Part shown: piece after piece, positions 2,253 through 64,000 of the stretch | How positions within the stretch are numbered: the first letter of the stretch is position 1 | Layout: each line of letters starts with the position of its first letter | Assembly: GCA_034440635.1 (NCBI GenBank) | Contig: JAOTON010002267.1 | Span: forward strand, 714,501 to 778,500 | Source of the DNA: Lepas anatifera | Lineage: Eukaryota > Arthropoda > Thecostraca > Lepadidae | Reading direction: 5' to 3' | Length of the DNA stretch: 64,000 nt | Made by a program: the position numbers and the translations under genes | Notes under the pieces: generated by a model | Database searches by the model: none | Told to the model about the DNA's origin: nothing | Seen by the model: the letters and a program-made list of their open reading frames with translations, nothing else

Positions 2253-3048
2253 TTAACACGCGCATTGACGGGGGTCTGAGACACTTCGATTGACGGGGGC
2301 GGGTACCCGCCCCTAAGATCTCGGAACCACGGTAGGTAGCGAAAAACGGTAAACGGGGTTGGGCTGCCCATGTACTTCTCAATCGAAAACATTTGAACCA
2401 TGTTTTTGTCAGGTCACATTCAAGGTCACGGAGGTCAAACATGCCGTCATAGGGATAACATGTAAATTCCGTTTTTCGGCCATTACATCTGAACAAGTAA
2501 AGATAGAGCAAAACGACTTAAACTATATGAATCCTCTCAGCAAGCCGAATCGAATGATATATAATTTGACCTTTCTAGGTCAAATCAAGGATTTGACCTG
2601 ACTTGAGGTCAGGTCGGGGTCAAATTTTATAAAATGCATATCATTAGAACCGCAAAGTCAGGCGAGTCTAATGCAGCTAAAATAAATGCTCTATCACCAT
2701 TTGTTACTGAATTATTCCGTAAAAGCATTTTCCCATGTATTTCAATGGGAGGTCTGCCTCGTACCTGACCTTAGGTCATCGATTTCAAAATACCGTAACA
2801 TATTTTGAGAACTCGGTGGGGTCATTATGTGATATGAGTTTCAATCGGATAAGTTATCCTTCTCCGACTTATGCTATCTTAAACTTTTTTAGGTTGGGTC
2901 CTTGACCTGTACTGGTGATCTGACCTGGATGACCTAACCTTAAAATTTTCACAAAAGTTGTAAAAATAATGACGGAAAGGTATGCAGTGCGGCGTAGCGC
3001 CCGTTTTTGCTGTCTCGAAAACCCGGGGTGGGTCCCCCGTCGTGTTAA
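2253..3048 (+). mobile_element. TTAA element, family A (copy A-1)
   Basis: Non-autonomous element flanked by TTAA at both ends. The left end carries the family A terminal motif twice, then the palindrome centred on GGGTACCC; the right end carries a degraded single copy. The interior has many GGTCA/TGACC half-sites and no open reading frame of note. At 796 bp it is close to the other complete A copies (826-849 bp). Confidence 0.85.
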
Positions 3049-5061
3049 TTTCAACACTTTTCATGTCCTGTTAGTTTTGTTATGCAAATACATCCCAGAA
3101 ATTTTGAAATGTTTTGATCCTTGGACTGGCTTAATTCCTAGAAGAGACACTGAAGCCCCAATGAGTAGGTATAATCGTAATGAAGTATTCTGACCTTAGT
3201 AGAGGTTGCATGCTTACATGATAGATTTAAGTCAGCGGGAGAGTTTCAGGACCTCATCTAGGCATTTTCTCAGCTTCCAACTCGGCTGACTCCGGTTGCA
3301 GAGGCCTGCAGATGGTGGTTGCATGCACAGCGCAATTATGCCTGTTGTAATTAGGGCCGAAGAGCAAGTACCCGAGTACTCCGGCCGGCTGCCCGGAGGT
3401 CGGAAAATATCCGAGCAGTGGTCGGAAGCCTCGTTCTCACCGTCAATGTAACGGAATCCTTAGTTTTAGGACGAGTCAGTATCAACAGCTTGCACAACTA
3501 TGGTAGTTTTCAGAATGTTTCTAGCTGTAATTATTTTGCCTTTTTTCCCGAAGGATACCCCACTCCGCCTCAACTATTTTAATCACATCACGGTTTATCA
3601 CTACCTCACTTTGTTCTTACCCTCGGCTTGCACAATTTACACCGCAAATATCCAGTTAAATTCTACACCATGAAGATTCACATAAAAGCTATTCGCGGCT
3701 ACAGAAAAATCTGCTGGCCGTGGGTCAGCCAGCCACAAGTTGGGGCGATTAGGCAGCCAATCTTCTGGCATCTAAGTGCCGGTCTTCCGGCAGCTGCAGC
3801 GCCAGCAGTGAGTGCGAGGCTACTCGGAACCAATCCGGCGTAACACCTCACCAGCCCGTCAGCAGGCGGCGGAGGTGCGGGCACAGAGCCAGAAAAAGCG
3901 GCAGCGCCGCTCGGCTCTGCACATCTGCCGCTACCTGCTGCAAACCACACCGAGATGCAAACGCCTCACCACTACTGTACATCTATTTTTGTCCGGTTGC
4001 AAGGAAGGACCATACATTCTGAGCGGGATGACTGGTGCAGTTGGAGAGTACAGCTCATCGACTACAAAGCAGTGAGCTACGAACTGTGCATGATTAGGTT
4101 TGACTGGCTCTATCTGAGCTCAGCTTTGCACCACTACCGCACACGGCGCGCACCTCAGGATGGCCGTCGGCGGCTGAGGAGTCGCTTTCCGGCCGGGTGG
4201 CCGCGTCCTCACTGCGAGGACGGCGGCGGCGCGGTGTTGTGGTGACGCGGGAACCGGTCCCGGCCTGCAGACCAGCATCGGCATCATTAGGGCGGCTCCA
4301 GTGTTTTTGCCGCTAATTCGCCGCTTCTGACCGGGCCGAGCCGACCGTGCGAGCCGGCAGGAATGCGTTCACTCGGCGGCGGCTCTGGCTTTATTAGAGG
4401 CTTTACAAATCTAATAGAAATGGACAGCGGACGATAACTAAGGACTAGTTTGAGAGGAGTTTGGGGAATGAATCACATTTTGAAACAAAGATATAGACAC
4501 TTGGGTGGTGATGGCCCATTGTCAAAGCCTAGACCCAGTCTCAATAAAAACCTGACGACATAAGTAAGCTGTGCAGTGGAATTCGTGAAATGTGACGTAA
4601 CCAAGCTTGCATGCAATCGCTTCAGCTGAATATCTGGCAAACCGGTTATATTTCCCTCCTGTGTGCTGCTCATCCCATCACTGCTGGCCACTCATCCGGA
4701 ATCGGTGCGGTCCAGAAGCAGTGCCACTGCTGATTCATAACTGCGGTTTGAAATCTAAACGGACAGCAGCTTTAAATCCCCTGTGAAATAGCAAAAGAGC
4801 TGACATGAACGCGCCAGAGCGTGACGCTGCATAGTCGTCGCTCCCGTTAGATCGGGAGAACCGGCCTAGCAGTAGACACGGATAAGAGGGCGCCACACTG
4901 GCGGCGTGAAGGAGTTAGGAGCGCCCTTATTACGTACCACTGCATCCCGGCGAAGGGGGATGGTAAGCGGTTTCTCTAGAAGCACAACATCTCGATCCGT
5001 GGTGAGACTGTCTGCTTGGTTCTGCCGATGACATCAACTCACACAGGCCGGTCCTCCGCAG
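3049..5061. other. Non-coding stretch, GC-rich in part
   Basis: No repeat family or exon recognised. About 3700-4420 is strongly GC-rich with short open frames that match nothing I know. The last part should be intron immediately upstream of the first recognised Ig exon. Confidence 0.5.
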
Positions 5062-5320
5062 CCGGTCGGCGTGGGCCGCGCCCTCTCCGTCACCGCCTCC
5101 GCCTCCACCGTCGGCCAGTACGAGTGTCGCACGTCCTCGGACCACCACGCCGCCATCAGCCGTCGCCTGCGGCTGTTCGTGAGGTCGGCCCCTCGGGTCA
5201 CGGCGCCGGCCACCCAGCACGGTCGCCCAGGCCAGCTAGTCCACCTGGAGTGCAACATCGCCAGCGTGCCTCCGCCCTCCAGAGTGGTCTGGAGGTTCCG
5301 TAACCAGCCGGTCCCGCTAG
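5062..5320 (+). CDS. Adhesion receptor exon: end of one Ig domain and start of the next
   Basis: Codes for 86 residues. It includes the F-strand motif YEC of one Ig domain, a linker, and the B-strand cysteine (LECNIASVP) and tryptophan (VVWRF) of the next. The acceptor CAG ends at 5061; an in-frame alternative ends at 5046. The donor is GTCAGT at 5321, splitting a codon after its first base. The exon ends inside the Ig domain, so the domain is completed by the next exon. Confidence 0.85.
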
Positions 5321-8300
5321 GTCAGTGCTTCAGGGGGTGTCTGTTGTGGGAGACTGCACCAGGGTGGGGTTATATCTGATTATGCCAGTTTTGGATGATA
5401 AGCAAGTGTTTGTTTCTTTTCGTGTCGTAACGTAAATAATTTTTCCTTTTGATGGAAGCCCTTGGCAGCTTTTTTCTTTTGCGTTTTTGTGTTATCGCAT
5501 TTTTCAAATTATTTATAAGACCTACTTTTCAAGTTTGAAATTTGAAATAGCGGATCTGAATGATGGCGGCTGGGGCACGCTTCAGCTGCGACTATGTGTG
5601 CCAACATCTGCGTCTGTGCCAACATCACACACCCGCACACGGTCCAAAAGCATGCCTCGTCTGAACCCGACCAGACTAGGACACCCGTGACGTGGCGCGT
5701 GACTGCGCAGACGTGGGGCGGTGTGCGGTGGTGCAAGAGGATGTGGTCGGAGGCATCCGCAGCCTGCTGGTCATACCTGACGCCGAGGAGAGCGACTTCG
5801 GCTTGTACAACTGCTCTGTTAGCAACGCCTACGGCACGGACTTCGCCCTCATCATACTGGAGACTGAAGGTGAGGAGGCCGTCACCTGCCGGTTGGAGAC
5901 GCTGAATGGGATGGTGTGTCTTACGTTGATTGGTTTTATCGGAGTGTTTAGGAAAACGAGATTTGTGAAGCAACAGCTGGTGTGTCTGTAGTTCAATGTT
6001 GGAAATTATATCCCCCAGAATACAGTCTAACAGAGAAAATTTTGACGAGGTCATAGGACCACAGTGGTGGATGCATTGCGTTGGTATACCCAAAAAGGAC
6101 ATTAGATCCAATGAGTAGCTAGTTGAAAATGATGAATGAAAATGAATTTCATGGTCCAGTTACATAATGGTGAGATATATTTGTGTGTGAACTGTTGGTC
6201 TACACGCGCCAGCATTATCCCCAGCTCATATCGAGTGATTTACAGTCTGAGCTCATGCAATACCATGGGTGATAAAATCAGCAAATTCCAGGAGAGCAGT
6301 TTTATGCACGAGGCTTCACATTTCATTAAGCGCTAGATGATAAGGATGGTGATAGGAGGCCATTATTTTGCCTCAATTGCACAGGTAGCACTAGCACATA
6401 TTATTGGGAGATGCAGTTACCGCCGGGTGCCCTGAGGCGAGCCCCGCAGTCAAACTGAAGTTTTCTATTGGCGCACGAATGCTATCGGAATGGAATCGCT
6501 CCGGTACATCGCCTCTTACCTCTAAATATATCTATTAAGCTCTAGATGGAGAAAAGATCAGTATGTGGGAGGTATGCTAAACAAGTTTTCCTGTACCTAC
6601 GTATAATAAAGAAGCCAAGAGGACTAGGTTATAGGGCTTTGAAACTATGCTCACGTTGGCGAAAGCACCTTTTAATCTTTTAATGTGAGGCAGTTTATCT
6701 TTCTTTTAAAATTGGGGCCATGAACGATATAAGTAAAAAGTGAGAGTCAGAGTTTATTATCAAACATGCTTTCTTTAATAATGCAACGAGGCGGGCGTTC
6801 ATGTATTCGAGTTAGGGAAACGTCAGCGGTCCCCAGCCCCCGATTTCCATGGTTCTTACGACCCTGAAAATAAGCGCGAGAACGCAGGGTACTGAGTGTG
6901 AACCCAACACTCCAGGTTTGGCGACAGCTCGGATTCCATGGTGCAACGCTGTGCCGTTTCGTGACAGAGTATTCAGGTACTGATGCGTTCAGTGCGGCAG
7001 TGCACTGTGTCGCCTCTTCAACTTCATCTCCCCCTCCCCGGTCTGTCCCTACTTAATCTGCAGCACTGGGCAGATAAGATAGGCCCACATATTATCCAGC
7101 TTACATATGTAATCTTAGTTTTTTTGGGATGGTTATTTATTACTTATCTCAGTTATCCAGTGAAGGTGTGTTCTGTTTAGTGGGTCGTGAAAAGGAAGAA
7201 TTTTTACATGACTGAAGGAGCTGCTTTGTTCGAAGGGCTGTGCACTGGATGCCAAGGCTATAGCATCATTGAACGTGTGGGGCATTTCTGTGTTGTTTGA
7301 AAGCCCATGACTACCAACAAGAAAGTTTATCGCTGCCTCAAACACGTGGCCATGTCCTGAATACTAATTCCCTCTGATTTATATATACGAGGTCTTCTTG
7401 ACTGCTAGCCGAGGGCTAAATGCACGTCTGCTCCTCACGGAATTTTAATCGGGTGCTGAAATACACTCAGGCGACCACATTTTGGTGCTAACATGGGCAT
7501 GTCCGTTATGACCATTCCGGACAAGTAAGGCTATCTATATAATCATTTTAATAGAATCATGTAATTGATCTACCATGTCTGACCTATGAATTTTAACACA
7601 TAATACAACTCAGTCTTCATTTATTTTACAATGCGTGATCCATCACATCAAACCGGTGGATAATTGAGGCGAAAACATGTTATCGTTGCAGATGATGTAC
7701 CGATTCCCGTAATCCTGACGATCATCATCGGAGCCATTATCATAATCATCACTATCTCGCTAGTGGTGATTCTGTGCCAGCGACACCACCGACGCAGCAA
7801 GGCGGCAGCCAAGGGTAAGTCACGCCAGACACAGATCAATTGGAACAAACTGCAAAACGGCCGCGCCTGTGGAATCGTGGCAGGGAACCAGGCACGATCT
7901 CCAGCCTTGTGCAAAGTTAACTGCACTTAACACGCGCATTGACGGGGGTCTGAGCCACCTTCGCCTTGACGGGGGGCGGCGGGTACCCGCCCCCCTAAGA
8001 TCTCAAGAACTGCGCTAGGTAGCGAAAAACGGTAAACGGCGTTGGGTAGCCCATCCACTTCTCCATCAAAAATATTTAAACCAATTTTTGTCAGGTCACA
8101 TTTAAGGTCACTAGGGGTCAAAACATGCCGTAATAGGGATAACATGTAAATTAAGTTTTTCGGTCATTACATCTGAACAAGTAAAGATAGAACAAAAAGA
8201 TTTAAACCATATGAATCCTCGCAGCAAGCCAAATCGAATGATATACGATATTACCTTGCTAGGTCAAATCAAGGATTTAACCTGACCTGAGGTCAGGTCA

Positions 8301-11300
8301 AGGTCAAATTGGAAAAATGCATATCATTAGAGCCGCAATGACAAGGCAAATCTAATTCAGTTAAAATAAACGCTCTATCTCTATTCATTACTAAGTTACT
8401 CAGCTAAAACCATTTTTCCCATGTATTTCCAATGGAGAGGTCATAAATCGTACCTGACCTTAGGTCATCGATATCAAAAATACCGGAATGTATTTTAGAG
8501 AAATCGGTGGGGTCATTAGGTGATATGAGTTTCAATCGGATAAGTTTACCCTGTTCCGATTTATGCTATCTTAAACTTTTTTGAGGTCAGGTCACTTGCC
8601 CTGTACTGGTGACCTGACCTTATATGACCTAACCTTAAAATTTTGAAAAAAAATTGTAAAAATGATGAGGGAAAAGGTATGCCTAGTACGGGGGCGCTAC
8701 GCACCGCCGTTTTTATGTTATGTCTGACAAACCCGAGGGGGGAGGGTATCCGCCCCCTGTCAATGCGCGTGTTAAGCTGCCAGTGCAAGCATAAATGTGT
8801 GAGATTGATTTCAAATGATCATATAAAATAGAGGAGAATAACTGAGGAGACTAACACGTTCTAAGTATAAAGAAAGGCTTCTGATATCACTGGAAGTAAT
8901 ATGATAGGTGCCGGCCATATTTTCAATTGTGCCATCTCTATCTGGTGCTACGCTGGAATCCGCAGCTATCAAACCAGTTGACTTATCCAGCTGGAGATCT
9001 CACTGCGAGCGTGCTCCCATCTCTTCTCGGCAATCGAGCTAACAGTTGAACGGGTAATCCTTTTATCTTGATGGTCATGGTGAGTTAACTGGAATGATTT
9101 GTGGGACCTACAGTGGTCCGTCGTTTTCGGATGATCAAAGTCGGAATTGTGACACTTTTGAAGCGTCCGGATTCCATTATTCTCAAAAACACTATCTAGA
9201 TAATTGAGATTAGCCCATGGTCTTCTAAACCAGTCTTCCTACCACTACGAAATTAAACATATATGTATCCCGAAACCTGTGTAACCTGTGATATCACTTT
9301 TGAGTATTTTCACTTTCCATTTAACTATTTAATACTTAGAATAACAGGATCAACAATAAGTCAAAGTTTGCAGTGTATACGTTTACACATTTTCCCCATG
9401 TGAAGTTTCCATGAATCAGGAATGTAGCCGACGATCCATTTTCTAACAGTTGTGGTGAAACCGAGCACCTCGAACATTGTTTCGCAGAGTGGAAATATGC
9501 ACGCACGTTTTGGAAATACCTATCTATGTAAGCAAGTGAGAAATTAGCGCTGATGAAATATTTGATAATGGTAGCAAAAGTGTTTGAATCGGCTAACTGC
9601 TGACACCATATATCGTAAGCTTCATAGTATTTTGAATGGAAAACAATTGATTGTGAACCAGCACTTTCGAGAACAGTTGATATTTACAGCTTCACTTATG
9701 AGAAAAGACGGGGTTATTCACTAAAAGTAGGTATGTAAAGGCTATAAAATTTAATGGGAGTTAAAGCCCCTTTATTTAAAAAATCGTGAACCTCACAGAC
9801 CTTGACCCGCGCCCCGGTAGACCTCCGAGCCACCTTCACCCTGGTGGGGGAAGGGGGTGTTTGAACACTCCCCTCGAACTCGGTGCCTATGGGGGATGGA
9901 GAAAAACGCAGACGCTGGTGAATAGCTCATAAAAATTCATGAAGAAAGTATATTAGTCACTTTTTGCCTCAGGTCAATATTGAGGCCATGACAGGTCAAA
10001 GAGTGTGACATTTTGAGTAGAGAGTTTTGGACTATAGCATCGGATAGAGTTTAGTTAGAATCATTTTGTATGCACCATTCGCTTCCTCTCGTCACGGCAA
10101 ATCGAATAATGCATAATATGACCACACTAGGACAAAACAGAAAAATAAGCTGACCTCAGGTCAGGTCAAGATCATTTTTTAGCCTAACATAGTCAATATG
10201 CATATCAATTGACTCGCAAGAGCACAAAACGTAATGGTATCCAAATAAAAGCTGTATCATCATTCGATGCAAAATTATTGACCTAAGTCTGAAAACTGCT
10301 TAAGTAGCCCCAGATGTCCTCTCAGAGTTCACATGCCATAAATTGAAACATGAACCTGGAAAGGGGCCCAGGATACTATGATTTGGAGACTATAAAGACT
10401 TTCTCAGCCGTATCTACACAAATACAGCCCGATTTATGTTTTTCCCGTGTATTTCCAATGGGGATATCATGGTTCGTTCTTGACCTTAGGTCATGGATAT
10501 GAAAAATCCCGGAATATATGTTGTAGCACTCGGTGGGCCTATTATGTGGTACAAGTTTCAATCCGATAGATTGAATTTCTTACTTATGCCATCATAATTT
10601 CTTTTTTAGGTGAGGTGACCTGACCTGAGATGACCCAACCTTAAAATTTTGCGGAAAGTTTCGAAATTGATCAATAATAATTGTTAGGGTTTAACGACGC
10701 ACCAACTGCCAGGGTCATACGGCGTCGCCTCGAAATTGATCAAGGGTCAGCAGCAATGACAAACGCATTCAAATCAAGGCTTGACAAGTTCCTGGAAATC
10801 TATCATTGATCTTCGCGACATCACGATGTGGACACCAAATAGCATCAGCTAAGCATAGTTCACTACATCTATATCTATATATAAGGCGCGCGAAGTACGG
10901 TGGCGCTCCGCGCCGCCGTTTTTTCGTACTACCAGAAAAACCCGACGGGGGTGTTCAAACACCCCCCACCGGGGTGAGGTTTAACGCAGCTAACTTCGAT
11001 AATAAACTAATGCCAATATTTCGTAATTTGTGCGTGCCTATTGTAAGAGTCGGGCCTAGGAAAAATCTAATCACTATGAAGATAGCTGAGTTAGATTACG
11101 GGTAGGGTAAGTTTGCGGATAGTTGATCAAAAGTATAGGTTTTAAGTGTATGTGGACATGAAAGTATGGATGATATATCAATTGATGTAAATTTGTGGAA
11201 AATATATGTGATATAAATGATAACCGAGCGGACACAAAGCGTTCGCGAGTTTTACCTCTGGGCTAGTAGATGAATTTACTTATGATCCAGCCAGCCGGGC

Positions 11301-11796: not shown

Positions 11797-11850
<54 letters not shown>

Positions 11851-12066: not shown

Positions 12067-12108
<42 letters not shown>

Positions 12109-12489: not shown

Positions 12490-12538
<49 letters not shown>

Positions 12539-13590: not shown

Positions 13591-13632
<42 letters not shown>

Positions 13633-20755: not shown

Positions 20756-21512
20756 TTAACCCTCGCTCCGGTGGGGGGTGTTTAAACACCCCCTCGGGTT
20801 TTTCCGGCGGCACGAAAAAACGGCGGCACAAAGCGCCGCCATACTTGGCCCACCTTATCCTTGATCTATTCTGCAACCTTCCCCAAAATTTTAAGTTTGG
20901 GTCATCTTAAATCAGGTCACCAGCGCAGGTCAAGTAGCCTCACCTCAAAAAATGTTTAAGGTGGCATAAGTAAAAAATGTGTGAATCTATTGGATTGAAA
21001 CTCATAAAACATAATGGCCCCACCGATTTTACATATCGATGACCTAAGACCAAGTACGGACCATGAACTCTCCATTGGAAATACATGGGAAAAACAGAAA
21101 TTGGGCTATATTTGTGTAGATAAAGCTAATAATACCTTCATATTCTCCAGTTCGAAGTAACCCGGGAACCTTTCCAGGTTCATGTTTCAATTTTTGACCG
21201 GTGACCTTTAATAGGTCATCTGGAGCTACTTAATCAGTTTTCAGGCTTAGGTCAATAACTTTGCATGAAATTATGATACCGCTTTTATTTTCATACCATT
21301 GCGTTTGGATTGCTATTGCGAGTCGATTTTCGATTGATATGCATATTGACTGTTTTAGGTTCAAAAGTGACCTTGACCTGTCCCGAGGACCGGTCATTTT
21401 TGTGTTGTGACCTAGTATGGTCATATCATACATCATGCGATTTGCCGTGACGAGAGGAAGCGAATGGTACCTACAAAATGATTCTAACTCAACTCTGTCA
21501 GATACTAGAGCC
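20756..21512 (-). mobile_element. TTAA element, family D (copy D-2), truncated
   Basis: Begins with TTAA and the right-end palindrome GTGTTTAAACAC followed by the CGGCGGC/GCGCCGCC hairpin, so it reads on the minus strand. Homology to the other D copies stops near 21512, so the left end is lost. Confidence 0.8.
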
Positions 21513-22626: not shown

Positions 22627-24477
22627 TTAACCCGCGCCCCACCAGGGATCCGGCGCCACCTTCGCTCCACCGGGGGGCCATCGATCCCCCCTCTAACTCA
22701 GAAAATATGGAGGTTAGCGAAAATCTGCAAAGTGCATTAGAAAGCTCGTGTGAATGCAGTAAGAAATTAATTCGCATTTTTAAGCGCTCAGGTCAATTTT
22801 TTGACCTTCAGAGGTCAAGAAAGGTCACGATAGGCTATTTTCGCTCAAATATGCAATGCTTAAGAAAACTGGGCATAGCTCCTATGCCATTAGAGCTATT
22901 GAGATCTGGTAAGTACATTTGATAGGAAATTGCCAGACCTTTTTCCGCTATGTGAAACGTAAATACCCGCCGCCAGTGGTTTGACCTCCAGAGGTCACCT
23001 CGTGACCTAATATGACCTGAGGTCACGAAAGGTCAGAAAGTGACCTTACCGTATATTAAATGAAAGCCAGTGACAAGAAAAACACGATGGTGTTTGTTTC
23101 AGCGCTTTAGTTTAACACGCGCATTGACGGGGGGCGGGTACCCGCCCCCTCGGGTTTTTCGGAGACAGAGAAAAACGGCGGCGCGTAGCGCCGCGTACTT
23201 GGTATACCTTTTCCTCATCATTTTTACAACTTCTGTAAACATTTTAAGGTTAGGTCATCTCAGGTCAGGTCACCAGTACAGGTCAAGTGACCCGACCTCA
23301 AAAAAGTTTAAGATAGCATAATTCGGAGCAGGGTGAACTTATCCGATTGAAACTCATATCACATAATGGCCCCACCGAGTTCTCTAAAATATGTTCCGGT
23401 ATTTTTGATATCGATAACCTAAGGTCGTACGAGGCATGACCTCTCCATAGGAAATACATGGGAAAAATGGTTTTACGGAATAACTCAATAACGGATGGTG
23501 ATAGAGCATTTATTTTAGCTGCATTAGACTCGCCTGGGCTTTGCGGTTCTAATGATATGCATTTTATATAATTTGACCCTGACCTGACCTCAGGTCGGTC
23601 AAATCTTCGATTTGACCTAGCAAGGTCAATTATATATCATTCGATTCGCTTGCTAAGAGGATTCATATAGTTTAAGTCGTTTTGCTCTATCTTTATTTGT
23701 TCAGATGTAATGGCCGAAAAACTGAATTTACATGTTATCCCTATGACGGGCATGTTTTGACCTCTCGTGACCTTAAATGTGACCTGACAAAAAATGGTTC
23801 AATGTTTTCGATGGAGAAGTGGATGGGCAGTCCAACACCGTTTACCGTTTTTCGCTACCTACCGTGGTTCTCGAGATCTTAGGGGCGGGTACCCGCCCCG
23901 TCAATCAAGTGGCTCGACCCCGTCAATGGCGTGTTAATTAGGTCAAAAGTTATTGTCAAAATACTGTTTTTGACCCCTGGTGACCTTGGATGACCTTGGA
24001 AAAGTCAAAGGGCAAATATGACCCCTGGGATCCGTGAAAGGGTGTCCATAAACGCTGTTCTGAACAGTCTGAGCATTTGCAATCATTTTTGTGGCTTTTA
24101 GATCATGAGATAGCTTTTCCAATGCTTTTCCAATGGGAGAGATCGCCTCGTGACATGACCTCAGGTCACGAAATCGAAAAATCCCGGTTATACACGTTAT
24201 AAACCCTGGAAGGGTTATGAAGTGTAGCAAGTTTCAAATCGATCGACTAGGAAATGTAGCTCTTGTAGAGCTTCAAAATTGAAATTAGGTGACCTTGGTT
24301 GACCTCGCCTGGTGGCCTGACCTTGGGTGACGCAGGGTAAAAATTTTCAGGGATGGTAGGAAAATGATGAGGTAAGAGATAGAGCCCTCAACCGCGGTGC
24401 TGCATTTCTTCGTTTTTCTGCTATATCGAAAAAAACCTTAGGGGGGCCATCGATGGCCCCGGTGGGGCGAGGGTTAA
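22627..24477 (+). mobile_element. TTAA element, family B (copy B-1), split by A-3
   Basis: Left end TTAACCCGCGCCCCACC with the motif duplicated around GCCACCTTCGC, then a damaged ATCGAT-centred palindrome. The right end has the intact palindrome GGCCATCGATGGCC, then GGTGGGGCGAGGGTTAA. Without the nested A-3 it is about 1.03 kb, the same as B-2. The interior has TGACCTCCAGAGGTCA and similar half-site pairs. Confidence 0.9.
23112..23937 (-). mobile_element. TTAA element, family A (copy A-3), nested in B-1
   Basis: Complete 826-bp minus-strand copy with TTAA at both ends. It sits in a TTAA that uninterrupted B copies keep intact as CTAGCTTAATTAGGTC (for example in B-2 near 25820), so the TTAA target duplication is visible directly. 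Confidence 0.9.
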
Positions 24478-40399: not shown

Positions 40400-40687
40400 C
40401 AAGCGCATTGACGGGGGGCGTGTACCCAGCCCCTTCGGGTTTTTTTAGAGAGAGCATCGCCATACTTGGCATAGCTTTTCTCTGATCATTTTTACAACTT
40501 TGGCTAAAATTTTAAGGTTAGGTCATCTCAGATCAGGTCATCAGTACAGGTCAACTGACCTCACTTCAAAAAAGTTAAAGATAGCAAAAGTCAGAACAGG
40601 GTAAACTTATCCGATTGAAGCTCTTTAAATAAGGTTAGGTGCGAGCCATGACCTTTGCATTGGAAATATATGTGAGAATAGTTTTAA
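40396..40687 (-). mobile_element. TTAA element, family A (copy A-6), cut by D-5
   Basis: Minus-strand A right end (TTAACAAGCGCATTGACGGG and a GTGTACCC palindrome), then A interior up to a TTAA where D-5 begins. The remaining part of A-6 is not found beyond D-5. Confidence 0.75.
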
Positions 40688-41193
40688 CCCGCGCCTCAGT
40701 GGGCCTCTGAGCCACCTTTGCCTTGGTGGGGGGGGTGTTTGAACACCCCTACCCTTGAACTCGGCCCCTATGCGGGATAGCGAAAAAACACTAAGGCTAG
40801 TTTAAAGCTCACGCAAATCCATTAAGAAACTATCAGTCACTTTTTGTCTCAGGTCAATATTGAGGTCATGATAGGTGAAAGAATGTGACATTTCGAGTAA
40901 AGTTTTGGAGCTCTAACGTGTGACAGAAATGAGCTAGAATCATTGTTTCAGCACCATTCGCTTCCTCTCATCACGGATAATAATAATGAATAATGAATAA
41001 TAATGCAAATAACAAATGGTGTATAATATGACCATACTAGGTCAAAACACAAAAATGACTTAACCTCAGGTCAAGTCAAGGTCACTTTTAAGCTAGCATA
41101 GTCAATATGCATATCAATGGACTTGCAAACGCAATCCGAACGCAATGATATCAAAATAAAAGCTGTATCATTATTGCATGCAAATTTATTGAC
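40684..41193 (+). mobile_element. TTAA element, family D (copy D-5), truncated
   Basis: TTAACCCGCGCCTCAGTGGG left end, GAGCCACCTTTGCC spacer, GTGTTTGAACAC palindrome and D interior with half-sites. Homology stops near 41193. Confidence 0.8.
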
Positions 41194-47113: not shown

Positions 47114-47927
47114 TTAACACACAACTCGCTGGGGGGGCGAAATTCGCCCCCTCCTGGTTTTCCCCAGATAACGTAAAAACGAGGGGACGCAGAATATCAA
47201 AACTTACAGTACGTTATCCCTGATAAGTTTTACGCATCTGACCAAATTTTGAGGTCAGGTCATCTCAGGTCAAGGAGCTATCTATGGTCAAGTGACCCAA
47301 CCTCAAAACCTAAAATCACGAGTTTGAAGCGGCGCCTAAGGAACATCAGCCAGCCGACCAGTTTGAAACTTCTCAATATGATAAGGTCATTAGGGTCTAC
47401 AAATCTGTTATCTCGGAGTTTTGAAATTGTTTGACCTAAGGTAGGGCTAATTTTTTGGTCACCCTATTATAAATCTATGGTGAAAAATGGAAAAATATTA
47501 CCCCAAATAAAAAATAAGGTATTTTTTTCATTTCACCTAGCGTAGTCATGCCATCCACCATTCAAGTTGTCTTAACGAGAGAAATCGAATGGTGCCTAAA
47601 ACTTGACACTAATTTAACCAAGTCAGACGCTAGAGAAAGAAGTTTGATAATCTGTCATCTTATTTGGGCTGTCATTACTTTGATATTGACCTGAGCCTAA
47701 AGGTGAATAATTTAGTTTTCCATCATTTTTGGTAGGCTATGTTCCGCTTTTCGCGTTTTTTGCCATCCCGCATAGGACCCGATATTTTGATTAGGTATAT
47801 ATGTTTTTCCATCATTTTTGATAGACTATGTTCCGCTTTTCGCGTTTTTTTTTTGCTATTATGCATAGGACTGGATATTGAGAGGGAGTTTCAAATCCCC
47901 ACACAGAGCACTGAGGACAGAAGTTAA
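47114..47927 (-). mobile_element. TTAA element, family F
   Basis: TTAA at both ends, 814 bp. A palindrome centred on GGCGAAATTCGCC is the first feature inside the left coordinate. The interior resembles family D (GAATGGTGCCTAAAAC, CGCATAGGACC) with half-sites. It contains a short tandem duplication with TATGTTCCGCTTTTCGCG (about 47735 and 47828). Confidence 0.75.
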
Positions 47928-50715: not shown

Positions 50716-51207
50716 GAGAAAAAGTTTAAGATAGCATAAGTCGGAACAGGGTGAACTTATTCGATTGAAACTCATCACATAATGGACCCACCGAGTTCTA
50801 GAAAATATGTTCCGGTATTTTCATATCAATGGCCTAAGGCCAGGCACGAGCCATGACCTCTCCATTGGTAACCATCGGAAAAAATTGTTTTAGCTGAATA
50901 ACTTAGTAATGAATGGTGATAGAGCATTTAGTTTAGTTTCATTAGATTGACCTTGTCTTTGCGGTTGTAATGATATGCATTTTGACATAATTTGACCTTA
51001 ACCTGACCTCAGGCTTAGGTCAAATGCCACGTTTAACCTAATTTGACCCAGCAAGGTCATATTATATATCATTCAATTCGGCATGCTTCGAGGATTCCGA
51101 TGGCTAACAATTTTTGCTCCATCTTTATTTATTCAGATGTAGTGATAAAAAACCTTTAATTACATGTTATCCCTATGCCAGAATGTTCTGGCCTCTAGTG
51201 CCCTTAA
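50716..51207 (-). mobile_element. TTAA element, family A (copy A-7), outermost layer of nest 1, first part
   Basis: Minus-strand A interior from AAAAAGTTTAAGATAGC to the conserved ACCTTAA site, where A-8 is inserted. It resumes at 56909. Its right end was replaced by other sequence. Confidence 0.8.
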
Positions 51208-51395
51208 CACGCGCATTGAAGGGGGTTTGAGCCACCTTCGCTTTGACGGTGGGGGCGGGTACCCGCCCCCACCGGTAAACGGCGTTGGGTTGTCCATCCA
51301 CTTCTCCATCGAAAATATTTGTACTATTTTTTCAGGTCACATTTAAGGTCACTAGAATTCAAAACACGCCATCATAGGGATAACATGCAAATTAA
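51204..51395 (+). mobile_element. TTAA element, family A (copy A-8), first part
   Basis: Left end (TTAACACGCGCATTGAAGGG, duplicated motif and palindrome) running to the internal GCAAATTAA, where B-6 is inserted. It continues at 54145-54467 and ends at 56903-56912. Confidence 0.85.
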
Positions 51396-52360
51396 CTTGT
51401 GCCCCACCGAGGGTCTGGTGCCACTTTGGCCCCACCGGGGGCAACGATGCCCGCCCTCTAACTCCGAAAATATGGGGGTTAGCGAAAAGCTGCAAAATGC
51501 ATTCGAAAGCTCGCGTGAATTCAGCACGAAATTACTCACATGTTTAGGCGCTCAAGTCACTGTTTTGACCTCCAGAGGTCAATTTAGGCGCGATAGGCCA
51601 TTTTCCAGAGGTCACGACAGGCCATTTTCACTCAAATATGCAATGCTTAAGAAAACTTTGCATAAATTTTATTTCATTAGAGCTATTGAGATTTGGTAAA
51701 GTATAGTTGATAGGAACATGCCAGACCTTTTTCCGCTATGTGGAACGTAATGACCCACCCGCCAGTGGTTTGACCTCCAGAGATCACCTAATGACCTAAT
51801 GTGACCTGAGGTCACGAAAGGTCAGAAAGTGACATTGCCGTGTAGCATACAAAAGCAAATGATGAGACATACACGATGATGTTTGATTCAGCGCTCTAGC
51901 TTAATTAGGCCAAAAGTTATTGTCAAAATACTGTTTTTGAACCCTGGTGACCTTGGATGACCTTGGAGAGGTCAAAGGGGTCCGTGAAAAGGGGTCCTGG
52001 GGTCCGTGGAAAGGTGTCCAAGAACGCTTTTCTGAGCAAGCTGAGCATTTGCAATCTTGTTTGTGACTTTTAGATCATGAGACAGCTTTTCCCCATGCGT
52101 TTCTAATGGGAGAGATCACCTTATGACCTGAATTCAGGTCACAAAATCGAGTTTCAAACCAATCGACCAAGAAATGTAGCTCTTATGGAGCTCAAAAGTT
52201 AAAGTGAGGTGACCTTGGTTGACCTCGCCTGGTGACCTGAACTTTTGTGACCTGGGATAAAAATATTCAGGGATGGTGGGAAAATGATGGGGTGAGAGAT
52301 AGAGCCCTCAACCGTGGTGCTGTGCCTCGTCGTTTTTCTGCTATCCAGAAAAAGCCTTAA
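51392..52360 (+). mobile_element. TTAA element, family B (copy B-6), main part
   Basis: Left end TTAACTTGTGCCCCACCG with the duplicated motif. The interior has TGACCTCCAGAGG pairs, with a small internal duplication near 51590. It is cut near its right end by A-9 and C-2; the last 40 bp are at 54108-54148. Confidence 0.85.
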
Positions 52361-53199
52361 CACGCGCATTCACGGGGGGCGGGTACCCGCCCCCTCGGGT
52401 TTTTCGGAGACAGCAGAAAAACGGCGGCGCGTAGCGCCGCCGTACTTGGTATACCTTTTCCTTTATCATTTTTACAACTTCTGTAAAAATTTTAAGGTTA
52501 GGTCATCTCAGGTCAGATCACCAGTACAGGTCAAGTGACCCGACCTCAAAAAAGTTTAAGATAGCATAAGTCGGAGCGGGGTGAACTTATCCGATTGAAA
52601 CTCATATCACATAATGGCCCCACCGAGTTCTCTAAGATATGTTCCGGTATTTTTTATATCGATGACCTAAGGTCAGGTACGAGGCATGACCTCTCCATTG
52701 GAAATACATGGGAAAAATGGTTTTTACGGAATAACTCAGTAACGGAAGGTGATAGAGCATTTATTTTAGCTGCATTAGACTCGCCTGGGCTTTGCGGTTC
52801 TAATGATATGCATTTTATATAATTTGACCCTGACCTGACCTCAGGTCAGGTCAAGTCCTTGATTTGACCTAGCAAGGTCAAATTATATATCATTCGATTC
52901 GGCTTGCTAAGAGGATTCATATAGTTCAAGTCGTTTTGCTCTATCTTTACTTTTTCAGATGTAATGGCCGAAAAACTGATTTTACATGTTATCCCTATGA
53001 CGGGCATGTTTTGACCTCTCGTGACCTTAAATGTGACCTGACAAAAAATGGTTCAAATGTTTTCGATGGAGAAGTGGATGGGCAGCCCAACGCCGTTTAC
53101 CGTTTTTCGCTACCTACCGCGGTTCTCGAGATCTTAGGGGGCGGGTACCCGCCCCGTCAATGCGAAGGTGGCTCAGACCCCCGTCAATGCGCGTGTTAA
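52357..53199 (-). mobile_element. TTAA element, family A (copy A-9), complete
   Basis: 843 bp, TTAA at both ends, the best-preserved A copy. It has the GGGTACCC palindrome at both ends, a CGGCGGCGCGTAGCGCCGCC hairpin near the right end, and 17 GGTCA/TGACC pentamers by eye. It is inserted in B-6. Confidence 0.92.
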
Positions 53200-54111
53200 C
53201 ACCCGCACTGGAGGGGGTCTGGCACTAACGCACTGGAGGGGGGCCTGGTAGGCCCTCCCCTAAGATCTCGGAAACTAAGAGGGTTAGAAAAACGCCACTT
53301 GGTAGGTGGGTGGGGGCTATGGTGATCTACATGATGACCAATTTTCATTGACCTAGGTCAATATCTTCAAGGTCAAACGAGGTCGTAAAGGTCAAATATT
53401 GGCCATGCTGGTATCGATTGATAAATGCTGTGATTATGCAGGAAAATGGCGGGAATAAGCTAAAGGCGGACATGGTTCATAGAGAAGAGGTCTCAAAGAG
53501 GCTTCCCCGCAATTTTTGGGTCAAGGTCATTCAAGGTCATTGACCTTTAAGGTCACCATATGGTATACTACTTATTATTTACACTTTGACTAACACTGCA
53601 GCCACTGTTTGGCGGGAAATGAGAATTGACCTTTCCCAATGACCTTTGACCTTGACCTTTGACCTTGACCTTTGTATTGGGGTACCCTACCGATGACGTC
53701 ATAGCATAATATATGTCAGACGGGGTAACCTCATTTGGCCGGACGCGCAGTGGTCAGTGACCTTGAAAGTGCAGATATGACCTTGACCTGTGACCTTTGA
53801 CCTTGACCTTGATTTTCATGTGAAGTGACCTTGACATATAGTCCCGCTTATATGACGTTATGACGTACCACTCGGTCTTCAATGCAAGCTAACTGGTCCG
53901 ACCGCGCGTTTACGGCGATCTCAAAATGCAGGTCTGACTTTGAAAGCCTATAAGTCAAAAATTTTCGGCCGATTTTCAAAAGTCTTCACCAATCGACGCG
54001 CTATTAAATTCGGTTGAATGTGGCCAGGTTTCGTTTTTCCGCTGCAAGCGGTTCTCCGGCCACCTCGGAAAACAGGTGGGGGCCTCGAGGCCCCCTCCAG
54101 TCGCGTGTTAA
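53196..54111 (+). mobile_element. TTAA element, family C (copy C-2), complete
   Basis: 916 bp starting at the TTAA shared with A-9. The left motif CACTGGAGGGGG occurs twice and the right motif once. Palindromes are GGCCTGGTAGGCC on the left and GGCCTCGAGGCC on the right. The interior has long rows of AAGGTCA/TGACCTT. Confidence 0.92.
53534..53546. promoter_or_regulatory. Perfect AGGTCA-T-TGACCT palindrome (IR1)
   Basis: Ecdysone-receptor-type site in C-2, next to further direct AGGTCA half-sites. Confidence 0.5.
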
Positions 54112-54148
54112 GGGGGCCATCGATAAACCCCGGTGGGGCGAAGGTTAA
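54108..54148 (+). mobile_element. Family B copy B-6, last 40 bp
   Basis: TTAAGGGGGCCATCGATAAA and then GGTGGGGCGAAGGTTAA: the right end of B-6, separated from the rest by A-9 and C-2. Confidence 0.85.
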
Positions 54149-54467
54149 GGTTTTCGTTCATTACATCTGAACAAGTAAAGATATAGAAAAAATGATTTAA
54201 ACCGTATGAATCCTCGCAGAAAGCCGAATCAAATGATATATAATATGATCTTGCTAGGTCAAATCAAGGATTTGACTTGACCTGAGGTTAGGTCAAGATC
54301 AAATTAAGCAAAATGCATATCATTTGAATTGCAAAGACAAGGCAAATCTAATGCAATTAAAATAAATGTTCTATCACCATCCGTTACTAAGATATTTATT
54401 TAAAAACAATTCTCCCAAGTATTTCCAACGGAGAGGTTATGGGCGGGTACCCGCCTCCCCGTCAATA
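54145..54467 (+). mobile_element. Family A copy A-8, middle part
   Basis: Resumes exactly at TTAAGGTTTTCG, the A sequence expected after the GTAAATTAA target. It has an internal deletion and reaches the right-end palindrome GCGGGTACCCGC and CCCCGTCAA, where M-2 is inserted. Confidence 0.85.
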
Positions 54468-56900
54468 TGGGAGACCGGGGCAAAATGGACACCCTAAGTG
54501 TTTTTCTAACATAGCAAGCTCAACAGCAAGCCGAAAATTTTGAGCTTTACACTCTGACGTAGCCTAATGAATTGTGTCTCTAAGGTAAGACTATCAACAT
54601 TAAAAATTAATTTGAAAAAACGTGGCAGTAAAATGTATCACCTAATGTTTTTTGTCCATTTTGCCCCAACCCTGGGGCATAATGGTTTTTAGGAAGGGGA
54701 AAACGGACAGTATGAACTGCTGTCACTGGACTTTGCCCGAGCACCCCCAAAAATGTATAAGTCCTCATCCTTGGCAGCCTGGGTAATATGGCAAAAACAT
54801 CATGTTTTCGTTAACCATTGCCCCAGTGGCGGGTACGAGCCACCTTCGCCCTGGTGGGGGGCTAAAAAGACCCCTCCACGATCTCAAAAACTAAGAGAGC
54901 TAGAAAAAAGCGCAAAACGGCAATCGAAAGCTCTTCAAAAGTGATATCGAAAATACTTCGGTCATTTTTCTTGTCAGGTCAATATCAAAGTCACCAGAGG
55001 TCAAAATAGGTCACAATCACTAATATGAGGTGTACTAAGAAAATCTCATATATCTCAGAAACTATAATAGCTAGAAACATCTTTTTAACACCATTCGAAA
55101 CCTATTGAGTTCCTCTTTTATTATGATGGGATTCATTTTCGTGTCAGGTCAATGCCTAGGGGGCTACAGGTTACTGAATATTGGGCATATTCTTGGGAAT
55201 GTCCATAGCCACCCATGCATAAGGGCGTTTGCTTTTTCGCTAATAACTTCCAAATCAAACAAGATACAGCCATAGTTGATGCAGGATTGCAATCCTCGCG
55301 TCAATACGAATCGAATGATATATGAAATTGCTATCCCAGGTCAAATTTAAGAATTTGACCTGACCCAGGTCAACGGTCTGACCCAACTTGACCTGGTATA
55401 GTCATGATGTATATCATTTGACTTGCAGTGACTATACAAACACTTTGGTGACAAAATAAAACTTCTATCTTACTTCATTAAAAATGCATAGAGTAAAACA
55501 CCAAAAAATGCTTATTTGACCTAAGGTGACCTTTTAAAGGTCACAAGTCAAAATGTTTGGTATCAACTTCAGAAATGGGCTAAGAGCAAGTCGTAACCGA
55601 TGTATGAAGTTGTTTCCATCCATAATTACTAAGGAAAGCTCATTTCGTGATTTTCCCCATGTATGGACAATAGGGAGGTCATGCTCTGCACATGACCTTA
55701 GGTCACCAATATCAAAAATCCCGGAACAAATGTTGTAGCTCCTGGTGGGCCCAATATGTGGTACGAGTTTCAATTTGATCGATTCACCCTTCTTTTAGTT
55801 ATGCGGTCCTAAGCATTGCTTGAGGTGAGGTCACTTCACCTGGCCTGGTGACCTGACCTGATATGACCTTGAGCTAAAATTTTCAGGAAAGATGTAAAAA
55901 TGATGAAGGAACAGCTAGACCAAGTTTGGCGGCGCTGCGCGCCGCCGCTTTTGGTCACTTCGGAAAAACCCCAGGGGGTCTAAAAGACCCCCGGGCGAAG
56001 GTTGCACGGGGTCTGGCGCCGGGGGGGCTGGGCCCCGTTAAACTGGGGTTGAACGCCTTGGTGGTGGGTGGGGTATGTGCTGTGTTTGCCTGGTGATTTT
56101 GGTACGGTGGGTTGGCGGGTGATGTAATGTGTGTTTTGGATGGGGGTGGGGGGGGTGGTTTGGTGGTGTTTGCCTGGTTTGGTTTTTTTTGTAACTGCGT
56201 TTGGAATGATTATCACCTTGCCTGACCTTGCTTTGTATTGGCCTCCTGAGTTGTTTGGGGGGGGTGGTTCCGCCTCCCGCTGTTTGTGCGATGGTTGTGT
56301 TTAGTTATTTGTATCGTTAAAGCGTCAACATCATATAACTCAGTTCAAATTTTAACCTGCTTTCATTTTGGCACAAGACTGCCCCTCACCCTGGACCCAC
56401 CCCTGCCTTCATGCTGTTTCTTTGACCTTACCACAATAGCAAACAACATAGCAAATTATCCTATGTGATTGGGGTAAACGGGACCATCAGACCATTTTAC
56501 ACCACTGGTCCATTTTGCCCCTTCCGTTTTGCCCCGCAGCTACTCCGACTCAAGTTTTTACGTGTCGAAAAAAATAGCAGGCTTTGAGATTTCAAATTAC
56601 CCTTACCCTAAGCCTACACTGCTACTTATTCAGACATATCACCATCGGAACTGAACTCAGTTTGTCACTCGAAAAAAATGAAGATTTTAAACTTGCAAAT
56701 ATCGTAATACTTACAGAACAATTCTCTCCAGCCAGCCCGCGTCGAAATGATGCCGCTAACTGACGATAAACACGTTATATTCTGACGTCCTTTGTCTAAA
56801 GCAGTTAGTTCGCCTTCTAAAATCTAGATGGGAACACCAGCAACATACCGAAATAGCTAAGTCCGTTTAGCCCCAAAGTCTGTTTTGCCCCGGTGTTCCC
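54468..56900. mobile_element. Mariner-like non-autonomous element M-2 (TA target)
   Basis: Inverted ends GGGAGACCGGGGCAAAATGG and its counterpart reading CCGGTGTTCCC, flanked by TA (54466-54467 and 56901-56902). Removing it restores the family A end CCGTCAATACGCGTGTT. Copies of GTCCATTTTGCCCC recur inside both ends. A family E element is nested inside. No transposase frame seen. Confidence 0.75.
54811..56005 (+). mobile_element. TTAA element, family E, nested in M-2
   Basis: TTAACCATTGCCCCAGTGG left end, GAGCCACCTTCGCC spacer and a repeated motif. The palindrome GGTCTAAAAGACC lies at the right, beside the GGCGGCGCTGCGCGCCGCCG hairpin. It ends TTGC for TTAA. A short B-like scrap follows to about 56040. 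Confidence 0.75.
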
Positions 56901-58158: not shown

Positions 58159-58994
58159 TTAACACGCGCATTGACGGAGGGTGGGTACCCGCCCACCTCT
58201 CGGGTTTTTCAGAGGTAGTAGAAAAACGGCGGCGCGTAGCACCGCCGTACTTGGTATACCTTTTCCCTCATCATTTTTACAACTTCTGTGAACATTTTAA
58301 GGTTAGGTCATCTCAGGTCAGGTCACCAGTACAGGTCAAGTGACCTGACCTCAAAAATAGAATAATTCGGAGCAGGATGAACTTATCCGATTGAAACTCA
58401 TATCACATGATGGGCTCACCGAGTTCTTTAAGATACGTTCCGGTATTTTTGATATCGGTGACCTAAGGTCAGGTACGAGGCATGACCTCTCCATCGGAAA
58501 CACAAGGGAAAATGGTTTTTACTGAATAACTCAGTAACAGATGGTGATAGAGCGTTTATTTTAGCTGCACTAGACTTGCCTTGGCTTTGCTGTTCTAATG
58601 ATATGCATTTTATATAATTTGAACCTGACCTGACCTCAGGTCAGGTGAAATCCTTGATTTGACCTAGCAAGGTCAAATTATATATTATTCGATTCGGCTT
58701 GCTGTGAGGATTCATATAGTTTAAGTCATTTTGCTCTATCTTTACTTGTTCAGGTGTAATGGCTGAAAAACTTAATTTACATGGTATCCCTATGACGGCA
58801 TGTTTGGACCTCTCGTGATCTTAAATGTGACCTGAAAAAATGGTCCAAATGTTTTCGATGGAGAAGTGGATGGGCTACCCAACACCGTTTACCGTTTTTC
58901 GCTACCTACCGTGGTTCTGGAGATCTTAGGGGGCGGGTACCCGCCCCCCCGTCAAAGCGAAGGTGGCTCAGACCCCCGTCAATGCGCGTGTTAA
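58159..58994 (-). mobile_element. TTAA element, family A (copy A-10), complete
   Basis: 836 bp, TTAA at both ends, minus strand. It has a GGGTACCC palindrome at both ends, a CGGCGGCGCGTAGCACCGCC hairpin and a full set of half-sites. Confidence 0.9.
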
Positions 58995-60991: not shown

Positions 60992-61900
60992 TTAACACGC
61001 GCACTGGAGGGGGGCCTCGGAGGCCCCCCCACCTGTTTTTCCGAGGTGGCCGGAGAACCGCTTGTAGCCGAAAAACGAAACGTGGGCATATTTAACAGAA
61101 TTTAATAGCGCGTCGATCGGTGAAGACTTTTCGAAAATCGGCCGAAAATTTTTGACTTATAGGCTTTCAAAATCAGACCTGCATTTTGAGATCGCCGTAA
61201 ACGCGCGGTCGGACCAGTTAGCTTGCATTAAAGACCGAGTGGTGACGTCATAACGTCATATAAGCGGGACTATATGTCAAAGTCACTTCACATGAAAGTC
61301 AAGGTCAAGGTCAAAGGTTACAGGTCAAGGTCATATCTGCACTTTCAAGGTCACTGACCACTGTGCGTCCGGCCAAATGACGTTACCCCGTCTGACATAT
61401 ATTATGCTATGACGTCATCGGTAGGGTACCCCAATACAAAGGTCAAGGTCAAAGGTCATTGGGAAAGGTCAATCCTCATTTCTCGCCAAACAGTGGCTAC
61501 AGTGTTAGTCAAAGTGTAAATAATAAGTAGTATACCATATGGTGACCTTAAAGGTCAATGACCTTGAATGACCTTGACCCAAAAGTTGTGGGGAAGCCTC
61601 TTTGAGACCTCTTCTCTATGAACCTTGTCCGTCTTTAGCTTATTCCCGCCATTTCCTGCATAATCACAGCATTTACCAATCGATCCCATCATGGCCAATA
61701 TTTGACCTTTACGACCTCGTCTGACCTTAAAGATATTAACCTAGGTCAATGAAAATTGATCATCATGTAGATCATTATAATCCCCACCCACCTACCAAGT
61801 GGCGTGTTTCTAACCCTCTTAGTTTCCGAGATCTTAGGGGGGCCTACCAGGCCCCCTCCAGTGCGCGTTAGTGCCAGACCCCCTCCAGTGCGGGTGTTAA
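60992..61900 (-). mobile_element. TTAA element, family C (copy C-3), nested in M-1
   Basis: 909 bp, TTAA at both ends, a close reverse-complement relative of C-2. It has duplicated CACTGGAGGGGG at its left end (high coordinates) and half-site rows throughout. Confidence 0.92.
61552..61564. promoter_or_regulatory. Perfect AGGTCA-A-TGACCT palindrome (IR1)
   Basis: Ecdysone-receptor-type site at the position in C-3 that corresponds to the one in C-2. Confidence 0.5.
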
Positions 61901-62472: not shown

Positions 62473-63130
62473 ATTAAATACATACTTTCGTCATGGATCT
62501 GCTCGAAGCACTGTTTGCATATAGCGATCCCGAACCATTATCGTCGTTAAATAAATTTTCCAGATTATACATACCTATCCTCATTCTACCTTGACATCAT
62601 GTTCCAGAATATGGGAAGACATACTAAAGAAGAACCACTTGCAGGGAGAATGAACCGGAGGCGCTTTAAGGTGCTTTGCACCCACTAAAATATGTTGGGC
62701 CCTATCTTAAATTGCTTTCGCGTTTTCCGTTAATAGTTAAAAAGCTTATCTGTTTATTTTTGCTGTGTCGGGCTTTAATGCCTCGAATAACCTGCCCACT
62801 TCGTCACAACATTACCATAAAGCGTAATCACAACAATGTTGCCACTTGTTCATGTGACGAGATACAGTATGCGCTGGGTGTTATATGACGGCGTTTTGCC
62901 CCGGTGGTTAGGGCGTTTTACCCCGCTATCGGGGTAAAACGCCTTTTTACATGGTCTCAAGAAAAAAACAAATTTCGCACACTTCGCATAGTGTCAGAGT
63001 CCCAAATTTATATCCGAGTGTAGACAGAACATCACAGAAATTAACAAAGAAAACATGAGGCAATTCCATCCGCGCAGGATTGTTACAGACACATTCTCCC
63101 TTAACGTATGCGTCTTACCCCACTCTACCC

Positions 63131-63464
63131 TATATAATTTGACCTTGCTAGGTCAAATCAAAGATTTAACCTGACCTGAGGTCAGGTCAGGGTCAAATTA
63201 TATAAAATGCATATCATTAGAACTGCAAAGCCAAGGCGAGTCTAATGCAGCTAAAATAAACGTTCTATCACTATCCGTTACTACGTTATACAGTAAAAAC
63301 CATTTTTCCCATGTATTTCCAATGGAGAGGTCATGCTTCGTACCTGACCTTAGGTCATCGATATAAAAAATACCAGAAATTTTTTTAGAGAACTCGGTTG
63401 GCCCATTATGTGATATGAGTTTCAATCGGATAAGTTCACCCTGCTCCGACTTATGCTATCTTAA
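63131..63464 (+). mobile_element. Family A copy A-13, second part
   Basis: Resumes at TATATAATTTGACC and runs to GCTATCTTAA, the TTAA used by B-7. The right end would lie beyond the window. Confidence 0.88.
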
Positions 63465-64000
63465 CCCGCGCCCCACCGGGGGTCCGGCGCCACCTTCGCC
63501 CCACCGGGGGGCCATCGATGGCCCCCCTCTAACTCCGAAAATATGGGCGTTAGCGCAAATCTGCAAAGTGCAATAGAAAGCTCGCGTGAATTCAGTAAGA
63601 AATTACTTCGCATGTTTTAGTGCTCAGGTCAATGGTTTGACCTCCAGAGGTCAAATTAGGTCAAGATCGGCTATTTTCACTCAAATATGCAATGATTAAG
63701 CAGACTGGGCATAACTCTTATGTCATTAGAGCTATTGAGGCCTGGTAAAGTACATTTGATAGCAAATTGCCAGTACTTTTTCCGCTATGTGGAACGTAAA
63801 GACCTCCCGCCAGTGGTTTGACCGCCAGAGGTCACCTCGTGACCTAATATGACCTGAGGTCACAAAAGGTCAAAAAGTGACCTTGCTGTATATCAAATGA
63901 AAGCCAGTGACAAGACAAACACGACGGTGTTTGTTTCACCGCTCTAGCTCAATTAGGTCAAAAGTTATTGTCAAAATACTGTTTTTGACCTCTGGTGACC
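63461..64000 (+). mobile_element. TTAA element, family B (copy B-7), cut by the window end
   Basis: Perfect left end: TTAACCCGCGCCCCACCGGG, a duplicated motif, palindrome GGCCATCGATGGCC and B interior. It continues past 64000. Confidence 0.88.

Follow-up and report, generated by a model that had tools for sequence, protein, structure and literature searches.

Related TTAA-bounded elements with piggyBac-type ends and differing subterminal palindromes in a Lepas anatifera contig

Results

We analysed a stretch of 64,000 nucleotides from Lepas anatifera (GCA_034440635.1, contig JAOTON010002267.1, forward strand 714,501 to 778,500; hereafter the window, in whose numbering all positions are given) and found that TTAA-bounded, non-coding repeats of about 0.5–1.2 kb occupy much of it. 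The repeats fall into families A to F, with E present in the window as one copy and F as one end only; complete copies diverge by 3–12% in A (five copies), 12–15% in B (four) and 4% in C (two). A sequence-only reading of this DNA had proposed TTAA boundaries, a G-run/C-run palindrome inside each end with a centre constant within a family, and a terminal motif that is doubled at the left end, single at the right, and changes in step with the palindrome.

Element ends and their geometry

We counted 48 element ends and, from the sequence lying inside the palindrome, assigned 25 as left and 23 as right. All counts exclude six doubtful end-like sites (20318+, 34962-, 35049-, 43678+, 47859-, 54502-, the sign giving the strand). 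The proposed TTAA boundaries were borne out: 11 of the 16 near-complete elements have TTAA at both ends, four more have one base changed, and the E element is without a right TTAA. At right ends, CCCT follows the TTAA in most of B and some of D; CACG or CCCG follows it at many other ends. As given in PMC2872659, CC[C/T]T after the TTAA is a criterion of the piggyBac superfamily.

The position of the palindromes was surveyed by seeking the best one between bp 14 and 70 after the TTAA in 24 right and 24 left ends (31721- being counted here as right). Right-end dyads lie most often 24.5 bp after the TTAA (9/24), with 13/24 at 23.5–25.5 bp and 18/24 at 21.5–27.5 bp. By family, the mode is 24.5 in A and D, and the dyad lies at 25.0 in F, 18.5–24.0 in C and 22.5–27.5 in B (54148- set aside). 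In the long left ends the mode is 52.5–53.5 bp; 10 of the 24 left dyads fall at 50–55 bp and 16 at 48–58 bp. The left dyad is thus about 28 bp deeper than the right one, because a spacer of 14–17 bp (shorter in a few copies, 16–17 bp in the cleanest) and a second copy of the motif are inserted. At the B long end 63461+, for example, a 17-bp spacer and an 11-bp motif make up the 28 extra bp. The spacer ends in GCCACCTTCGC in A, B, D and E.

Indeed, a motif repeat matching in at least 8 of 11 bases was present in 21/25 left ends versus 2/23 right ends, or in 16/25 versus 1/23 at a stricter p ≤ 0.02. The repeat offset was 27–28 in 17 of the 21 doubled left ends and 22–26 in the other four. The predicted doubling therefore held for most left ends, the exceptions being three undoubled ones (31721-, 31718+, 39419+) and a weak one (9802+, 7/11). 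Recombination between the two motifs perhaps produced the undoubled ends.

Palindromes with the expected centres were recovered in families A, B, D and F, and in C and E for the right end; in many copies the palindrome is decayed. For 23 of the 48 ends, no more than 5% of 200 base shuffles gave a palindrome as good as the best one, one of these 23 ends (54148-) having a palindrome that belongs to the neighbouring element. When four right-end stretches of 84–85 nt were folded as single-stranded DNA, hairpins formed at the palindromes, with whole-stretch z of -1.9 to -4.1.

Right ends also carry a second palindrome (in A: GGCGGCGCGTAGCGCCGCC, e.g. 52423-52441), which is nearly identical in A, D and E. 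It is located 71–75 bp after the TTAA in A and D and at about bp 65 in E (with the end placed at 56005), and beats shuffles (p < 0.05) in 5/23 right ends.

Agreement of motif and palindrome

Motif and palindrome agreed on the family in 37 of the 40 callable ends (8/48 were uncallable), compared with a maximum of 21 in 20,000 shuffles, a permutation that overstates significance because family labels and counts share the same data and the copies are related. Looser scoring gave 39/48, or 36/43 good matches. Three ends are discordant: two belong to E and one to D. The right E end was taken, here and in the doubling counts, from 56013, 8 bp outward of 56005. D and E have a near-identical motif (5/6 and 6/6) and different centres (3/8). 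Change in step was thus seen in nearly all callable ends, but D and E share the motif and differ in palindrome, which means that the motif and palindrome modules can part.

Homologous bodies and differing ends

A, B, D and E have homologous bodies, the homology lying mainly in the right half, with 76–81% identity over 85–305 bp (one copy each); each of the pairs A-B, A-D, A-E, B-D, B-E and D-E exceeded all 30 shuffles. Between the right end of an A copy and that of a D copy, motif and centre are identical at 5/17 positions versus 69/86 in the adjoining body (Fisher p 8e-5), and at four left ends (one copy each) motif and centre are identical at 42/120 positions versus 114/132 for tip and spacer. 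The tip TTAAC...CGC, the G/C arms and the spacer are common to the ends of A, B, D and E. Body homology of C to E is weak (score 32, shuffle maximum 28).

The bodies of all families are also rich in AGGTCA (e.g. 52357-53199, 31718-32735, 53196-54111, 54811-56005), a nuclear-receptor half-site. The 19.3 kb of element sequence contain 278 AGGTCA/TGACCT hexamers, where shuffles gave a mean of 9.5 (maximum of 30 shuffles: 14), an enrichment of about 30-fold, and 80 in the remaining 44.7 kb against 19.9; in 14 elements AGGTCA is the most over-represented hexamer (33-fold). The clusters are quasi-regular, spaced mostly 110–220 bp apart, with a best period of 172 in A and E, 170 in B, 160 in D and 140 in C, and hexamer centre distances favour 10, 7 and 20–22 bp. 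For the mean of these five families, which are partly homologous and so are not independent cases, the observed periodic power was reached by 0/500 uniform and 2/500 cluster-placement controls.

Between A, B, D and E the hexamers are better conserved than other body bases in 10/10 directed comparisons, the observed value being reached in 0–28 of 173–277 circular shifts, and 40/59 intact hexamers are still intact between families. Within families, measured against the consensus, the effect is weak in A (hexamer mismatch 3.9% vs 5.0%; 50/266 shifts as low) and clearer in B (3.2% vs 6.0%; 3/303 shifts as low). A pairwise within-family measure was discarded in favour of the consensus measure since it overstated conservation, its sites having been picked from one copy.

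Nested insertions

Several elements are inserted in one another. When the A element at 23112-23937 is removed from the B element 22627-24477, the B flanks rejoin colinear with three other B copies at 86–88% identity. In a deeper nest, an A and a C element with one common TTAA lie inside the B element 51392-54148, and that B lies inside an A element starting at 51204, whose joined flanks align to four A copies at 87–88%. Overall, rejoined flanks align across the junctions at 84–88%. The nesting order shows that movement of A both preceded and followed that of B, and that C moved later than B. Abutting elements of different families have a single common TTAA at 31718-31721, 40396-40399 and 53196-53199, which suggests that families use the ends of other families' elements as insertion targets.

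Sequence and literature searches

The exact end and palindrome patterns of family A, the family used for this search, had no match in public viral or genome contig collections. A piggyBac transposase alignment compared with viral contigs gave 41 pattern matches, none of which was confirmed. Two candidate transposase remnants in the window, 41461-41691 and 12813-12944 (E 0.017 and 0.054), were rejected because on reading they are unlike the family. In the partial texts that our literature searches covered, no published description of these palindromes was found, and the matches to end-like strings were mostly microbiological, judged by titles. One terminal motif resembles a common 16S rRNA string, which we take to be the probable cause of the microbiological matches.

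Table 1. Elements and isolated ends located in the window
Feature	Position	Strand	Remarks
Family A element	2253..3048	+	Left end 2253, motif doubled; right end decayed; palindrome GGGGCGGGTACCCGCCCC at 2296-2313
Family A element	7927..8775	+	Both ends TTAA
Family D element	9802..10984	+	TTGA/TTAA; right palindrome GGGGGTGTTTGAACACCCCC; left end weakly doubled
Family D right (short) end	20756..20793	+	Perfect palindrome GGGGGTGTTTAAACACCCCC at 20774-20793
Family B element	22627..24477	+	Split by family A element 23112-23937
Family A element	23112..23937	-	Nested in B at internal TTAA
Family B element	25336..26357	+	CTAA/TTAA
Family A element, short copy	31180..31721	-	Left end 31721 undoubled; TTAA common with B element at 31718
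Family B element	31718..32735	+	Perfect palindrome GGGGGCCATCGATGGCCCCC at 31744-31763; insertion at left end shortened
Family D element	35812..36606	-	TTAA at 35812; TTAG at 36606 (element's own strand)
Family B element	39419..40399	+	Single motif at left end; TTAA common with A right end at 40396
Family D left end	40684..40750	+	Doubled motif; palindrome GGGGTGTTTGAACACCCC; right end not found
Family F right (short) end	47114..47151	+	Palindrome GGGGGCGAAATTCGCCCCC at 47133-47151; left end not found
Outer family A element	51204..54441	+	Interrupted by B 51392-54148; about first 500 of about 840 bp found, normal right end not
Family B element	51392..54148	+	Interrupted by A (52357-53199) and C (53196-54111), one common TTAA
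Family A element	52357..53199	-	Clean short end 52357; palindrome 52375-52394; dyad 24.5 bp after TTAA
Family C element	53196..54111	+	Left centre CCTGGTAGG; right centre CCTCGAGG, palindrome 54078-54095
Family E element, single copy	54811..56005	+	Right palindrome GGGGGTCTAAAAGACCCCC at about 55974-55992; GCAA (minus strand) at 56002-56005 instead of TTAA
Family A element	58159..58994	-	Clean long end 58994; palindrome 58929-58948; dyad 52.5 bp after TTAA
Family C element	60992..61900	-	Right palindrome GGGGGGCCTCGGAGGCCCCCC at 61009-61029; left centre CCTGGTAGG
Clean family B long end	63461..63527	+	Motif 63472-63482, 17-bp spacer 63483-63499, second motif 63500-63510
Palindrome of family B long end 63461+	63506-63527	+	Overlaps G-run of motif

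Other features of the window

An exon of a phenoloxidase-activating-factor-2-like serine protease lies at 27846-28535 on the minus strand; its named matches are phenoloxidase-activating factor 2 of insects and crustaceans, the top match reaches 98%, and the barnacle Pollicipes matches at 66% over 65% of the query. Candidate exons of an immunoglobulin-domain membrane protein, judged by eye, were noted at 5060-7815 on the plus strand. The region 11551-14142 is AT-rich and contains inverted repeats nested in one another, with arms of 182, 164 and 111 nt, and long AT dinucleotide runs; it is perhaps another foldback-like element. A tandem array of 7 overlapping copies, with a period of about 35 bp, is found at 15832-16147. 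Lastly, at 43678-43770 an A-type end passes into long homopolymer runs of G, C and A, which may reflect an assembly error.

Discussion

We consider it probable that these repeats are non-coding TTAA elements with piggyBac-type ends, moved by piggyBac-superfamily transposases. Paired cysteine-rich C-terminal domains (CRDs) of these enzymes would grip the family-specific palindrome, and the terminal motif would be read by the catalytic core. The palindromes are most likely CRD-dimer sites, as their register matches the positions bound by the CRDs of piggyBac and piggyBat. Since the palindromes differ at the very position where piggyBac CRDs bind, each family was likely moved by its own enzyme, and we infer that each would answer to a transposase of distinct CRD (and core) specificity. 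The families would then have diverged by swapping recognition modules on related elements, an origin by module replacement that the sequence comparisons suggest. The recognition code or end-pairing device imagined in the sequence-only reading survives in part: the palindromes sit in CRD-dimer register, and those of piggyBac and piggyBat differ from each other in the accounts of PMC7351741 and PMC11707139, but a strict code does not fit D and E. A bolder version, which we put forward tentatively and hold to be doubtful, is that one genome contains at least five mutually private piggyBac transposase-palindrome pairs that arose by repeated replacement of CRD and palindrome, while a common body was kept, together with its quasi-regular AGGTCA arrays, which are perhaps bound by a nuclear-receptor-like host protein that positions or activates the element.

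A number of observations weigh against this interpretation. Neither a DDD transposase (PF13843) nor a convincing remnant was found in the 64-kb window by tblastn with 120 piggyBac proteins of the Trichoplusia ni (T. ni) type (best E = 0.017), a search that a piggyBat-like enzyme could escape, and enzymes matched to the families are therefore something we only infer. The motif that D and E share is not accompanied by a shared palindrome, which weakens a strict motif-palindrome code, and the second right-end palindrome, being nearly alike in A, D and E, means that not all palindromes are family-specific. A constant centre within the family fails in C, where the left centre is CCTGGTAGG and the right one CCTCGAGG or CCTCGGAGG. 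At the left end of E the palindrome is imperfect (CTAAAAAG). The wider register windows miss 6 of the 24 right ends and 8 of the 24 left ones, owing to decay, a neighbour's palindrome, short left ends and one wrong TTAA (E), and some in-register palindromes are weak. The C body showed no clear homology to those of A, B and D (scores 28, 23 and 26 vs shuffle maxima 27, 26 and 27). Lastly, the 27 bp directly inside the left palindrome are identical at just 14–17/27 positions between families, so that the module contrast is weaker at left ends.

This last point, together with the single copies of E and F, would suit ordinary divergence, in which old piggyBac MITE (miniature inverted-repeat transposable element) families in one genome, each with its own ends, came to have palindromes that differ only through age, with neither module replacement nor private recognition. 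Precedents exist, in that subterminal inverted repeats differing between piggyBac-like elements have been described (PMC12324416, in the part available to us) and the interiors of coral TTAA MITEs are more conserved than their terminal repeats according to PMC2872659. We nevertheless think this explanation unlikely, because motif and centre are far less alike than their neighbours in the A/D right-end comparison, and less alike than tip and spacer in the left-end one, while symmetry and register are kept.

It is rather less probable that a single transposase of broad specificity moves all families and that the palindromes are tolerated variants. The tip, arms and spacer that A, B, D and E have in common are consistent with such an enzyme, as is the nesting order, in which activity of A both precedes and follows that of B, and activity of C follows that of B; however, one enzyme would be expected to permit mixing of motifs and palindromes, and 37 of the 40 called ends are concordant. 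A purely structural role, in which the palindromes would form DNA hairpins or cruciforms instead of sequence-specific protein sites, so that only self-complementarity counts and the sequence is free, is improbable. Right-end stretches do fold into hairpins at the palindromes, and the outer G/C arms are constant while centres vary. However, most undecayed copies within A, B and D share their centres, which a structural signal does not need, and the register coincides with that of a site whose binding by protein is known from structures. An identity outside piggyBac was rejected on the TTAA, the dyad register and the 28-bp asymmetry.

If, as we favour, the palindromes are sites for family-matched CRDs, the clan offers a view of how piggyBac transposases recognise their own ends, so far known, in the literature covered, from the structures of two enzymes with unrelated palindromes. 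Related elements that vary motif and palindrome at a constant register would make the CRD-palindrome code readable by comparison and would be a source of orthogonal transposase-end pairs. A preprint reports an active heterodimer in which one piggyBat subunit was given piggyBac CRDs and the right end a piggyBac palindrome (PMC13405395, in the portion consulted), and the clan described here may be a natural instance of such an exchange.

Comparison with known systems

According to the structural account in PMC7351741, as far as it was available, the ends of T. ni piggyBac (LE35/RE63) comprise a 35-bp left end, on which a CRD dimer occupies bp 17-33 with a narrowing of the groove at about bp 25, and a 63-bp right end. 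The right end contains a duplication as well as a 17-bp insertion, and its bp 34-63 are almost identical to bp 7-35 of the left end; a second, inner transposase dimer was modelled on this long end. Our elements resemble T. ni piggyBac (IFP2) in the TTAA, in the short-end dyad at about bp 25 and in a long end extended by 28 bp through a 17-bp insertion and a motif duplication. They are unlike it in having other palindrome and motif sequences, in occurring as several families side by side, and in that no coding region was found here. The left end of piggyBat (Myotis lucifugus) bends at about bp 25 and bp 69, where CRDs are bound (PMC11707139, PMC13405395), and its palindrome and CRD fold are described as unrelated to those of piggyBac (PMC11707139, PMC13405395). 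Like piggyBat, our elements have a motif followed by an imperfect palindrome, and the second right-end palindrome of A and D is near the position of the bp 69 bend. Unlike here, where a palindrome is present at both ends, the sources describe piggyBat palindromes on the left end only, repeated every 44 bp.

The coral (Acropora) CMITEs are likewise TTAA MITE families with divergent ends and conserved interiors, but they are about 100 bp long, and the description consulted in PMC2872659 includes neither a palindrome set nor a doubled left end. Human MER75, MER85 and Looper have subterminal inner inverted repeats as well; their description in PMC12324416, to the extent covered, is without a common body carrying exchanged palindromes. 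Of the novelty first claimed for these elements, the asymmetric doubled end has to be given up, because it equals the LE35/RE63 plan of T. ni piggyBac and was already known, and the palindrome set stands as new. Taken together, the ends are of a type already known, and the set that they form is unusually informative; the recognition reading is likely, and what is new here is a set of related families with a homologous right half but differing motif and palindrome, as if refitted.

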